A DNA stretch of 30,584 nucleotides from a virus, in IMG/VR virus record IMGVR_UViG_3300047476_001491, positions 1 to 30,584 of that record; one strand, 5' to 3'. Shown here piece after piece: positions 14,438 through 18,355 of this stretch (positions within the stretch are counted from its first letter, which is position 1; every line of letters starts with the position of its first letter). Both the position numbers and the translations under genes were made by a program. Under the pieces are notes generated by a model. That model was given only the letters and a program-made list of their open reading frames with translations. It searched no databases and was not told the DNA's origin.

Positions 14438-16261
14438 ATGGGAGCATTATTAGAATCAGGTCTCGTTGGTAATATAGGATTAAAACACCTTAAAGTTATC
14501 AAAGAAGACACAATTAACAAGTGGGACAAATTAGGTTTCCTTGAAGGTCTGAAAGGACATATGAGAGAAAATGTGGCGCAACTTTATGAAAATCAAGCGT
14601 CATATTTGATTAACGAAGCATCTTCAACATCTGATACAGGTTCTTTTGAAACTGTTGTATTTCCAATTGTTAGGAGAGTATTCTCAAAACTTTTGGCTAA
14701 CGATATCGTTTCAGTACAAGCAATGAACTTACCTATCGGTAAATTGTTCTACTTTGTACCTAATATCCAGAATTATACTGACGCAAGTACACCATCAAAT
14801 GGTATTCATTACCCACCTTATGGTGCACCTGGTGGACCTGCAACACCAAATGAGGGTTATAAGTATAACGAAGGTAGAGATCTTTATGATAGATTCTATG
14901 AAGGTAACGAACCAGCATTAGACCCTCCAGGTCTTTTCGATTATTCTAAGGGAGAATTTTCAGCGATTACAGGTTATGCTGTAACTGCGGTTTGGAATAG
15001 CACTACTTTGAATTTACAAACTTCTGCTTATACTATTAATGAAGGTCCTGATGGAGGTTCATACAGAAAAGTATTACTTATTATGTCAGGTTTTGCACAG
15101 AGTGCCGCAGGTAAATTAATAGGACCTGATGGTAACCCAATTGATACTGAATCGTTCTTATCTGATTTGACAATATATGGTAATACTGCCGATAATGGAA
15201 CTGTTGCTGCTTTAGGTGCAGGTCCGTTCTTATTCAGAGTTGTAACTCAAAGATATGGAAAGGGTATTGTTCAATATGGAAATGCAAATGATACTTCAGT
15301 ATTCCCTAATGATAGAACTGATGGAGGACAATGGGATAATATTTGTACTGTAGATGGTCAAATTTATTTGGAAGTTGACCTTTCTACTCCTACATGTATT
15401 AGCTGTGGTGGTTCTTTAGATGGTTACACAGGTGTAACGTTCTCATCAAATACTGATACCAACAGTGCGTTTATTCCTGTTTACAGACTATACAAAAACT
15501 TAGAATTCGAAGACAGAATTGGTGAAGTTTCTTTCGACCTTATGTCTGTTACAGTTTCAGTTACTGAAAGAAAGTTAAGAGCTCAATGGTCACCTGAAAT
15601 GGCACAAGACGTTGCTGCTTTCCACAATATCGACGCAGAGGCAGAACTTACAGCTTTATTGTCTGAACAAGTTGCGGCTGAAATCGACAGAGAGATTTTG
15701 AGAGACCTTAGAAAAGGCGCAGCTTGGAATCTTAGATGGGATTACAATGGTTGGAAGAGATTAGGTTCAAATGCAGTTCCTTACACTCAAAAAGACTGGA
15801 ACCAAACGTTGATTACTGCAATTAACCAAATTTCGGCTCAGATTCACAAATCTACTTTGAGAGGAGGTGCTAACTGGATCGTTGTTTCTTCAGAAATTAG
15901 TGCGATTTTTGATGACTTGGAATACTTCCACGTATCAAATGCCGCTCCTGAACAAGACCAGTACAATATGGGTATTGAAAGAGTAGGTACTTTGGCAGGT
16001 AGATATCAAGTATATAGAGACCCTTATTTCCCACCTAACCAAGTGTTGTTGGGTCACAAAGGAACATCATTACTTGACACAGGTTATATTTACGCACCAT
16101 ACGTTCCATTACAACTTACACCTACAATGTATAACCCATTCAACTTTACACCAATCAAAGGTATCATGACAAGATACGCGAAAAAAATGGTGAACAACCG
16201 CTTCTATGGCCGGATTACTGTTGATGGTGTTAGAACGTTTGATTTAAGAGAATTGAGATAA
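14438..16261 (+). CDS. 23: Major capsid protein (T4 gp23-like)
   Basis: 607 residues. Forms the hexamers of the head shell after prohead maturation. N-terminal propeptide: helical, with HMRENVAQLYENQASYLINE ending at residue 60. LINE-A fits the L/I-x-E rule of T4 gp21, so cleavage is predicted after E60 (T4 gp23 is cut after E65). Next come FETVVFPIVRRVFSKLLAND at 70-89 and IVSVQAMNLPIGKLFYF at 90-106, the conserved HK97-fold start of the family. The C-terminal part has WSPEMAQDVAAFHNIDAEAE and a final YGRITVDG segment. Longer than T4 gp23 (521), with the extra length in the middle (about 120-350), probably insertion domains. Starts after an A-rich leader. Confidence 0.95.
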   Translation: MGALLESGLVGNIGLKHLKVIKEDTINKWDKLGFLEGLKGHMRENVAQLYENQASYLINEASSTSDTGSFETVVFPIVRRVFSKLLANDIVSVQAMNLPIGKLFYFVPNIQNYTDASTPSNGIHYPPYGAPGGPATPNEGYKYNEGRDLYDRFYEGNEPALDPPGLFDYSKGEFSAITGYAVTAVWNSTTLNLQTSAYTINEGPDGGSYRKVLLIMSGFAQSAAGKLIGPDGNPIDTESFLSDLTIYGNTADNGTVAALGAGPFLFRVVTQRYGKGIVQYGNANDTSVFPNDRTDGGQWDNICTVDGQIYLEVDLSTPTCISCGGSLDGYTGVTFSSNTDTNSAFIPVYRLYKNLEFEDRIGEVSFDLMSVTVSVTERKLRAQWSPEMAQDVAAFHNIDAEAELTALLSEQVAAEIDREILRDLRKGAAWNLRWDYNGWKRLGSNAVPYTQKDWNQTLITAINQISAQIHKSTLRGGANWIVVSSEISAIFDDLEYFHVSNAAPEQDQYNMGIERVGTLAGRYQVYRDPYFPPNQVLLGHKGTSLLDTGYIYAPYVPLQLTPTMYNPFNFTPIKGIMTRYAKKMVNNRFYGRITVDGVRTFDLRELR

Positions 16262-16279
16262 TCGATTTCTTATGAATAC

Positions 16280-16313
16280 AAAAAAAGGGACAATTTATTG
16301 TCCCTTTTTTTTA
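16280..16313 (+). terminator. Rho-independent terminator after major capsid gene
   Basis: AAAAAAAGGGACAAT and ATTGTCCCTTTTTTT pair around a short TT loop, with flanking A- and T-runs that may allow bidirectional action. Confidence 0.92.
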
Positions 16314-16363: not shown

Positions 16364-17047
16364 ATGAAGAAATATATCCCATCCCAAGAAGAGATTGAGG
16401 TCATCCTTAAAATGTACAATGAAGATTTACTCGGAAGTCAAACAATTTCAGAAAAAATGGGATTAAATAAACAACAGGTATTGAGAATTCTTAAAGAGAG
16501 TGGTGTTATTTTAGGACCTTCAGGTAGAAGATTCCTTGGTGGTAAAAAAGTTGCCGATAAAAAATATCGTGAAAAAAATAAAGAGAAATTAAGTGACAAT
16601 CATAAAGTTTGGTCTGAAAATAATAGATTCCATTTAAATAATTATCACAAGTCGTGGAGAGAAAAAAATATTTACAAACACAGAGAAAATAAAAGGAATT
16701 ATGAAAAAACACGAAAAAATAATGACCCCATATATAAATTAATAAATAATTTCAGAACTGCGATATATCAAGTATTAAAAGAAAACAATGTTCAAAAAAA
16801 TGGTCATTATTTTGATATTCTTAAATACTCACCAAATGATTTAATTGACCATTTAGAAAGACAATTTACTGATGGTATGACATGGGAAAATTATGGTAAA
16901 TGGCATGTTGACCATATTCAACCAATTTCATCGTTCAATATTAGAGAAATTGGAGATGAAGAATTTATAAAATGTTGGTCTTTAAAGAATTTACAACCAT
17001 TGTGGGGTGAAGACAATATTCGTAAATCTAATAAGATTATAAATTAA
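16364..17047 (+). CDS. Free-standing HNH endonuclease with N-terminal helix-turn-helix
   Basis: 227 residues. N-terminal helix-turn-helix of the resolvase type (QTISEKMGLNKQQVLRILKE at about 26-45), a middle region very rich in Lys, Asn and Arg, and a C-terminal HNH nuclease: WHVDHIQPISSFNI from 180 with H181, D183 and H184, then CWSLKNLQPLWGEDNIRKSN from 204 with N209 and N218. This domain order is common in phage homing endonucleases. The gene sits alone between the capsid terminator and a hairpin cluster, as expected for a mobile endonuclease placed next to, not inside, a conserved gene. Whether it cuts the capsid gene of related phages cannot be told here. Confidence 0.9.
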   Translation: MKKYIPSQEEIEVILKMYNEDLLGSQTISEKMGLNKQQVLRILKESGVILGPSGRRFLGGKKVADKKYREKNKEKLSDNHKVWSENNRFHLNNYHKSWREKNIYKHRENKRNYEKTRKNNDPIYKLINNFRTAIYQVLKENNVQKNGHYFDILKYSPNDLIDHLERQFTDGMTWENYGKWHVDHIQPISSFNIREIGDEEFIKCWSLKNLQPLWGEDNIRKSNKIIN

Positions 17048-17070
17048 TTCTGTTATTATATTAGAAAAAT

Positions 17071-17180
17071 GGGTAGGGTGTTGTATCTGAATCGTTCCTT
17101 CCTACCCTTACTAAATTAGGATTTTCCACCTAATTGGTGTAATTGATTTATTTGTATCTAAATCGTTGACATCAATTACA
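17071..17180 (+). ncRNA. Cluster of three hairpins, candidate structured RNA
   Basis: Stem 1: GGGTAGG (17071-17077) with CCTACCC (17101-17107), 23-nt loop. Stem 2: AATTAGG (17114-17120) with CCTAATT (17129-17135), 8-nt loop. Stem 3: TGTAATTGAT (17138-17147) with ATCAATTACA (17171-17180), 23-nt loop. All stems are perfect. The loops of stems 1 and 3 share TTGTATCTrAATCGTT (17081-17096 and 17152-17167; 15 of 16 identical) although their stems differ entirely. It begins 23 nt after the HNH stop and ends before the promoter-like motif of the next gene. It could be a structured 3' UTR, a separate RNA, or a DNA-level element such as a protein- or nuclease-binding site. No T-run follows, so it is not a simple terminator. 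Confidence 0.4.
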
Positions 17181-17218
17181 TTTAAATTGTAAGACTTATA
17201 ACTATTATAGTTTAATAA

Positions 17219-17227
17219 ATATTTATA
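17219..17227 (+). promoter_or_regulatory. Late-promoter-like motif ATATTTATA
   Basis: Lies 12 nt before the ATG at 17240 in the context AATATTTATAAAAAAAA, nearly the same as at 10406. With the hairpin cluster it fills the 192-nt gap after the HNH gene. Confidence 0.45.
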
Positions 17228-17239
17228 AAAAAAATAGAT

Positions 17240-18355
17240 ATGATAAAACAAACTTGGAATATAAGTAGTTCAGAAAAAGAAAGAATTTTGAGACTTCATA
17301 AGTCGGCAACTCAAAATCAATATTTAATAAAAGAGCAAGAAACAGAGCAACCTGAAACAGATATACAAGGTAAAGTAAAAATAGTTGAAGATGAATTTAC
17401 TTTCAACTTTAATTTTAAATCAGGTCATTGGAGTGTAAATGCTGAAAGTTCTGCAGAAGACGGAACTACAATCGTTGACCAAGTTGCCGGTGTTATCACT
17501 AACCTGAAGAATTTCCTTAGTCAATATCTTTATCCTCAAATTACAAAGATAGATATTGTTTCTGGTGAGTCGGCGGTTACAAATTATGATAGAGAAATTG
17601 AAGGTAAGAACGTAGAATTACCTAAAGGTGAATTGGCAAAAAGAAGAAATGATACACTTAAAAAATTGTTTCAAACTTATTTAAATGATTTAATTAACGC
17701 TGGTTTAATTCAGAAATTACCTGAATTTACAGAAGAAGTGGTTCAGGGAACTGAAACTGAAAAGGGTGAGGCTGCTAATTTGGAACAATTCGTTAAGGTT
17801 ACGATTTCAGTTAGAGGAGTTAAAAAACAAGTGGGTTGTAAATTAGGTGTTGATATAGTTGTTCAATATGATAAAGTTCCTGATACTGACCCAAAATTTC
17901 ACAGATGTAATGATGCGATATTCCAACTTACTTTGAATAATGTTCCTGTTGGAGAGGAGGGTGACCCTGATAGTAGATTTAACTTAAATAATTTCCCACA
18001 TGGTCAATCGGTTAAGAAAAATCTAATAATAAGTCCTACGTTAGCACAAAGAATCCTCGGGACAATGAAAAATCCTGAAGATGAGAATGAACCTATCATT
18101 ATGAGGTTAATATGTAAAACTTTGGGGACATGCCATGATTCACCTATGTTGATGACAATATTTGATAAACAAGGTAATGTCGTTGGAGGTCCATCTTATT
18201 TTGGTGCATCTGATAAAGGTGAAGATAGAATGAAGGCAAATGAATATAGAGAAATCGGTAGTATCAATAAATGTGGTAAAATATTAACAGTTAAAGATTG
18301 GTTTTCCGACACTAAAAAAGAAATAGAGGCGGCGCAATCTACTGAACCTAAATAA
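17240..18355 (+). CDS. Probable virion protein with weak OmpA-like segment
   Basis: 371 residues; family not recognised. The N-terminus (SSSEKERILRLHKSATQNQY, then LIKE-QE) has the look of a removable head-targeting peptide: a basic amphipathic helix followed by an I-x-E site. A segment near 105-155 (ITKIDIVSGESAVTN, then LPKGELAKRRNDTLKKLF) loosely resembles the OmpA-like peptidoglycan-binding fold, but key residues are not certain. The C-terminal half is beta-rich with scattered Cys and includes FNLNNFPHGQSVKKNLII. No signal peptide or membrane helix. Preceded by a strong late-promoter-like motif, so late expression is likely. Confidence 0.7.
   Translation: MIKQTWNISSSEKERILRLHKSATQNQYLIKEQETEQPETDIQGKVKIVEDEFTFNFNFKSGHWSVNAESSAEDGTTIVDQVAGVITNLKNFLSQYLYPQITKIDIVSGESAVTNYDREIEGKNVELPKGELAKRRNDTLKKLFQTYLNDLINAGLIQKLPEFTEEVVQGTETEKGEAANLEQFVKVTISVRGVKKQVGCKLGVDIVVQYDKVPDTDPKFHRCNDAIFQLTLNNVPVGEEGDPDSRFNLNNFPHGQSVKKNLIISPTLAQRILGTMKNPEDENEPIIMRLICKTLGTCHDSPMLMTIFDKQGNVVGGPSYFGASDKGEDRMKANEYREIGSINKCGKILTVKDWFSDTKKEIEAAQSTEPK

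Follow-up and report, generated by a model that had tools for sequence, protein, structure and literature searches.

A small RNA that presents a near-invariant loop sequence on freely changing stems is predicted from the minus strand of IMG/VR virus record IMGVR_UViG_3300047476_001491, and the RNA family to which it belongs stands in near-constant company of a nuclease-like phage protein. The stretch analysed (positions 1 to 30,584 of that record, 30,584 nucleotides (nt); hereafter the window) contains at 17071-17180 three consecutive perfect stems of 7, 7 and 10 base pairs (bp), the outer two of which close loops of 23 nt each. In related phages, the gene convergent with such arrays specifies a protein of about 137 amino acids (aa) that is likely, judging by its structural models, a RelE/RegB-like endoribonuclease. 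Because the arrays bring 1-4 near-invariant copies of the loop into the company of this protein, we lean, on balance, towards the reading that the small RNA is its RNA partner (an antitoxin, decoy or cofactor), the loops being what the enzyme recognises.

Covarying stems around a near-invariant loop

In plus-strand order, the array begins with hairpin B (arms GGGTAGG, 17071-17077, and CCTACCC, 17101-17107; 23-nt loop, 17078-17100), continues with a middle hairpin (arms AATTAGG, 17114-17120, and CCTAATT, 17129-17135; 8-nt loop), and ends with hairpin A (10-bp arms, 17138-17147 and 17171-17180; 23-nt loop). A preliminary description of this DNA had placed the stems correctly and had noted a nearly identical 16-nt loop sequence on unrelated stems. 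This 16-mer, TTGTATCTrAATCGTT on the plus strand, lies at 17081-17096 and 17152-17167, with no further mismatch-free copy in the window. The same description knew of no motif that matched, and both gathering-level and permissive searches agreed with it: the Rfam covariance models rendered no gathering-level match in the window, and none at E ≤ 10 over 17000-17260.

The 16-mer is present in >120 IMG/VR stretches, often in 2-4 copies spaced 40-90 nt. Complementary arms (stem score of at least 6) flank it in 70 of 109 distinct viral contexts from IMG/VR, a proportion well above that in bacteria and archaea: their genomes, in which the 16-mer is no commoner than expected by chance, supplied 121 contexts, and 12 of these have such arms. 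The array is therefore more than a chance arrangement. Among 21 hairpins of equal geometry but unrelated stems, 147 of 147 pair cells hold standard pairs, a percentage that is biased upward since these hairpins were picked for their stems and equal loop length. The informative part is the double changes: all seven of the seven stem pairs are altered on both sides, and the covariation score was 1.167, compared with 0.286 in shuffles. The stems sort into about 10-12 groups, with at least four of seven positions different between groups. Looking in related phages for the loop with flanking inverted repeats and covariation, as the preliminary description had proposed, thus revealed RNA-type covariation of the stems around a fixed loop core.

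Conservation of the loop was initially imposed by the search patterns; the core, ACrAUUhAGAUAC, persists in loci fetched by means of the protein only, hairpin A sometimes reading ACAAUU and sometimes being lost. The number of hairpins per array varies from 1 to 4, all of them bearing the 13-nt loop core on stems that are not shared, and the extended loop reads roughly rGGnAACrAUUhAGAUACAA. These observations point to a structured RNA family that is new and widespread among uncultured phages, lake-type phages that probably infect Bacteroidota. When 79 loci of the closest capsid relatives were screened for loop variants, the element was found in none; the large records among these relatives were then used as the motif-free negative set.

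Strand, promoter register and terminator of the small RNA

In the relatives, the elements follow a constant order along the minus strand: a Bacteroidota-type promoter, hairpin A, in many cases a further small hairpin, then hairpin B and a U-run. Promoters of the Bacteroidota type have the consensus TTTG, about 20 nt, TAnnTTTG. In nearly all cases, the distance from the start of the -7 box to the core is fixed, at exactly 25 nt in the two-hairpin type and exactly 28 nt in the single-hairpin leader type. Since the promoter register, the position of the U-tract and the order of the homologous arrays all point the same way, the sequence indicates that the RNA is made from the window's minus strand; a plus-strand RNA was ruled out by the promoter register, the U-tract and the shared leader arrangement.

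The predicted small RNA gene occupies 17063-17190 (approximate ends, minus strand), as deduced from its anatomy and from the homologous arrays, and would specify an RNA of ~120 nt ending at an intrinsic terminator. Read on the minus strand, it comprises hairpin A (17138-17180; a 10-bp AT-rich stem and a 23-nt loop with ACGATTTAGATAC at 17154-17166, with homologues on unrelated stems), the middle hairpin (17111-17137; 7 bp and an 8-nt loop), hairpin B (17071-17107; a 7-bp GC-rich stem and a 23-nt loop with ACGATTCAGATAC at 17083-17095, again with homologues) and the U-tract ATTTTTCT (17063-17070). Many arrays likewise have a small hairpin in the middle, its stem differing from one array to another. 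The U-tract lies 3' of hairpin B, U-runs being likewise placed in nearly all two-hairpin relatives, and by its sequence hairpin B doubles as the intrinsic terminator. The preliminary description had proposed that an RNA recognition sequence is presented here, and the covarying stems and kept loop bear this out; it erred as to the strand, giving the displayed sequence as TTGTATCTGAATCGTT (plus strand), while the minus-strand evidence predicts that the loops display ACrAUUhAGAUAC instead.

The window's own host-type promoter is uncertain because the -7 box is degenerate, reading TACAATTT, despite lying in the right register (17184-17191, minus strand), where the relatives have TAnnTTTG, 25 nt ahead of the core. 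On the same strand, ~40 nt before hairpin A, TATAAATA is found at 17220-17227, and it is also present in L036, a relative of the window. This sequence, which matches the T4 late promoter consensus exactly, may stand in for the degenerate promoter of the host type or may be a chance occurrence in AT-rich DNA.

The linked protein and the genomic contexts of the hairpin

The reading frames of nine motif-bearing phage records were clustered together with those of four motif-free relatives. The family of ~137-aa proteins was found in eight of the nine and in none of the four, encoded beside the arrays and convergent with them; a second family absent from the four motif-free records, and present in five of the nine others, was located away from the arrays. 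Distinct proteins accompanied by an array numbered 32, and in every one of these cases the last core follows close upon the stop codon (8-35 nt in the relatives, typically 8-25 nt). When loci were fetched with a protein profile and without the motif, the exact core was present within 260 nt of the stop codon, in convergent orientation, in 77 of 79 loci. The number of independent cases is smaller, since the profile had been built from motif-found loci and many of the 79 belong to identical or closely related phages; their downstream sequences fall into about 30 distinct ones. The genetic linkage of array and protein is tight.

The two exceptions, L590 and L593, and additionally the 281-kb phage G354, show another RNA at this position, equipped with a promoter and a GC-rich terminator. 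This second, unrelated structured RNA (GGGTTGAACCGAGATTACCC...CTCGG...terminator, with a TAnnTTTG promoter of its own) is convergent with the nuclease-like gene at loci that lack the double-hairpin RNA; in L590 and L593 it occupies the minus strand directly beyond the stop codon of the gene at 2501-2947, and in the G354 locus (L725, G354:C1) it lies at about 202500-202770. Its sequence suggests that GGGTTGAACCGAGATTACCC...CTCGG could form a pseudoknot. In a 296-kb phage (L578, L580), the nuclease-like gene adjoins a complex-looking RNA region of ~200 nt that ends in hairpin B. Distant homologues of the protein occur in two huge uncultured phages of 635 and 484 kb (LR745206.1, 312268-318651, L598; LR756508.1, 150464-153844, L614), the former without a core hairpin nearby. 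Host homologues were limited to weak partial matches inside long proteins.

AlphaFold models were obtained for two of the ~137-aa proteins (mean predicted local distance difference test scores of 80 and 76). A Foldseek search of solved structures rendered weak matches only (HigB2, E = 0.06), while viral models gave a Tenacibaculum phage PTm1 protein (E = 3.7e-6) and RegB of phage Ec_Makalu_003 (E = 1.9e-4). In a second structural comparison, the RelE superfamily ranked near the top for both models (Z of 4.6-5.5, with RelE itself at 4.8-5.5) and HigB/HigB2 also ranked; RegB (2hx6) reached Z values of 3.9 and 5.0 over 96-97 residues in the two models, and was the longest alignment (97 residues) in model 2. 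The invariant H38 and the conserved R42 align with H48 and R52 of RegB, in a single aligned stretch whose profile match is not significant; H48 is catalytic in RegB (PMC3014915), the second histidine of which was not matched. The RegB family model PF10715 did not match the ~137-aa protein, with T4 RegB scoring 230.8 bits as a control. As for the ToxN, CptN and TenpN type, the protein has no Pfam match and its models point to RelE/RegB. We take it to be likely a RelE/RegB-like protein, one that would cut RNA.

In about 45 loci, the two-hairpin RNA stands 3' of the gene for a T4-like major capsid protein; elsewhere it lies among transfer RNA (tRNA) genes. A single hairpin is found just after a promoter, upstream either of tRNA arrays or of GOLLD, the latter in 10 of 10 loci tested, in which the hairpin lies about 510-670 nt before the start of the GOLLD model. 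Both types occur within one phage in four instances (G003, G005, G006 and G007). GOLLD does not imply the hairpin, which was present in 4 of 40 loci fetched by a GOLLD pattern. In L011, L030, L035, L072, L090, L245, L256, L276, L282 and L299, GOLLD has upstream promoters, often in tandem, and the loop hairpin follows the first; five of these loci (L030, L035, L090, L256 and L299) have a transfer-messenger RNA gene near GOLLD on the opposite strand. Large tRNA arrays were seen in three hairpin-bearing phages (L002, L254 and L303); the stretches fetched for L002 and L254 each include >20 tRNAs. In L002, L032, L085 and L108, a single loop hairpin and then a U-run precede the tRNA genes, possibly as a stand-alone RNA of ~45 nt.

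In the window itself, the array is convergent with a gene specifying an HNH/endonuclease VII-like protein (16364-17047, plus strand, phrog_1035), upstream of which lies the gene for the T4-like major capsid protein gp23 (14438-16261, plus strand, phrog_138); AAAAAAAGGGACAATTTATTGTCCCTTTTTTT, at 16279-16311 just past the capsid gene, looks like a bidirectional intrinsic terminator. The order in L018, L102, L113 and L309 is capsid, HNH, 137-aa gene and array; the window and L036 share it except that the 137-aa gene is missing, which leaves capsid, HNH and array. To judge from these gene orders, the array with its intact loops outlasts the linkage to the 137-aa gene in the window, whose phage may carry the enzyme gene elsewhere in its genome or may have lost it. 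The HNH endonuclease, which the preliminary description had put forward as a possible recogniser, turned out to be a passenger between the capsid and 137-aa genes in a few relatives; most arrays have no HNH gene beside them, and this protein was ruled out as their partner.

Function of the RNA and relation to known systems

In the arrangement we favour, the small RNA from the minus strand would be the RNA half of a two-part module, and the convergent ~137-aa protein the other half. The hairpin loops would present ACrAUUhAGAUAC as the sequence recognised by the enzyme. The RNA would in turn restrain or direct the enzyme, inhibition or titration being favoured by analogy with type III toxin-antitoxin systems, and the single hairpins at the 5' ends of GOLLD and tRNA-array transcripts would mark those RNAs for the same enzyme. 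A broader proposal, that one loop sequence links a RelE/RegB-like endoribonuclease to several non-coding RNAs within one phage (a dedicated partner RNA, the GOLLD nanocage RNA and tRNA arrays), with the enzyme being stored, targeted or used to mature these RNAs while infection proceeds, is put forward tentatively, as a possibility that we rather doubt.

Several results weigh against a partnership of RNA and enzyme. The ~137-aa protein has no sequence match in Pfam, PHROG or the PDB; structural Z values near 5 can reflect merely a common arrangement, and the profile comparison with RegB did not reach significance (probability about 1%). Neither the window nor its closest relative, a 50-kb record, encodes the protein, and the same is true of several large hairpin-bearing records (G015, 176 kb; G327, 152 kb; G345, 166 kb), fragments and divergence blurring such absences; G019 has only a weak homologue, and G347 retains a remnant hairpin B but no enzyme gene. 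Moreover, genetic linkage of this kind alone is no proof that protein and RNA touch.

Other explanations account for parts of the evidence. The hairpin might be a 5'-end element of phage non-coding transcripts (GOLLD, tRNA arrays and a short terminated RNA) that is placed where early promoters start transcription and acts in cis on RNA polymerase or on RNA stability, the protein linkage being secondary. Its fixed distance to the -7 box, the 10 of 10 GOLLD-associated single hairpins just after a promoter and the tRNA-array leaders of L002, L032, L085 and L108 all fit such a role, and hairpins with kept loops right after early promoters are characteristic of HK022 put RNA and boxB-type antitermination RNA. 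This nevertheless seems unlikely: the same loop is displayed by hairpin B, which lies far from the promoter and, unlike put and boxB, is a terminator, and the linkage of the module to a nuclease-like gene is a further difference from those RNAs. Moreover, with a U-tract closing the two-hairpin RNA, there is no downstream sequence that would require antitermination, the hairpin accompanies GOLLD in only 4 of 40 GOLLD-fetched loci, and the linkage to one protein in 77 of 79 loci would be left unexplained. We give still less credence to autoregulation, in which the transcripts of the two strands would overlap and the RNA would control the nuclease mRNA from its 3' side, as an antisense RNA or by transcription collision, with no protein partnership. 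The convergent genes, with 8-35 nt from stop codon to hairpin core in nearly all loci, would suit it; antisense control, however, needs no invariant loop on freely changing stems, the loop is also found at unlinked GOLLD and tRNA loci, and arrays persist without the nuclease gene (the window, L036 and G347).

Two unpaired near-invariant 13-mers, together with the promoter and terminator that the relatives possess, are typical of trans-acting small RNAs, and the RNA could pair through its loops with host or phage mRNAs. The preliminary description had suggested searching for complementary sites; none emerged. In phage genomes, the core outside hairpins occurs at chance level on either strand, even with 1-2 mismatches allowed, and in 295 Bacteroidia genomes the core and its complement are at the level of the reversed control; for these reasons a full-length base-pairing target for the loop is unlikely. 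Pairing with 16S or 23S ribosomal RNA was no better than that of shuffles. Although shorter seeds would be compatible with these results, a trans-acting role appears improbable. Mimicry of the 16S helix 24 loop (GAUU-AGAUAC, with one insertion) was rejected, as it was equalled by 55-86 of 200 shuffled loops; so was kinship with the FopS/RbpB small RNAs of Bacteroides, the FopS seed lying in a single-stranded 5' stretch and not in hairpin loops, and FopS being an Rfam family that has no match here. Finally, a DNA-level element (an operator or nuclease site) with incidental inverted repeats would agree with cores near promoters in fixed register, yet the stems covary with no conserved DNA sequence, promoter-less copies of the core keep the hairpin and the neighbouring HNH gene is mostly absent, which makes this explanation scarcely credible.

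Like the type III toxin-antitoxin systems ToxIN, CptIN and TenpIN, the proposed module pairs a small endoribonuclease-like protein with a small RNA of repeated structured units and an intrinsic terminator, the repeat number varies (1-4 here) and more than one RNA class accompanies the protein family. In type III systems, RNA and toxin share one operon, in which the RNA comes first, then a terminator, then the toxin gene (PMC5086642). Here, in contrast, the genes are convergent and the RNA has a separate promoter, an organisation outside that operon plan; the repeats share the loop only, not the stem; the protein model is RelE/RegB-like; the genomes are those of phages; and GOLLD and tRNA loci display the loop too. 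With T4 RegB (PF10715), the ~137-aa protein shares T4-like phages as carriers, a similar size, a helix with H-x3-R and possibly, according to the models, the fold. The long motif that RegB recognises, GG*AGRAYARAA (PMC3014915), opens with GG, and the extended loops here contain GG as well. The protein differs from RegB in lacking sequence-level membership of its family, the literature searched yielded no RNA partner for RegB, and the present motif is absent from phage mRNAs. RelE and HigB are among the best-matching solved folds for the ~137-aa models; these type II toxins have protein antitoxins in the same operon. Literature searches found no described system that matches, which is weak evidence given incomplete coverage of subscription journals.

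GOLLD (RF02032) is a separate RNA, downstream of the single-hairpin type in the 10 loci and without the hairpin in most others. To our knowledge, its biological role is open. Its cage-like structure is reported to have been solved (PMC12286853). Taken together, the data suggest a previously undescribed control module made of an enzyme and an RNA. If this reading is true, the module would be a concrete candidate partner, and that partner would be an RNA: the RNA family, with about 45 capsid-linked loci here alone, would give an orphan protein family a testable RNA target, and the hairpin module would tie in GOLLD.
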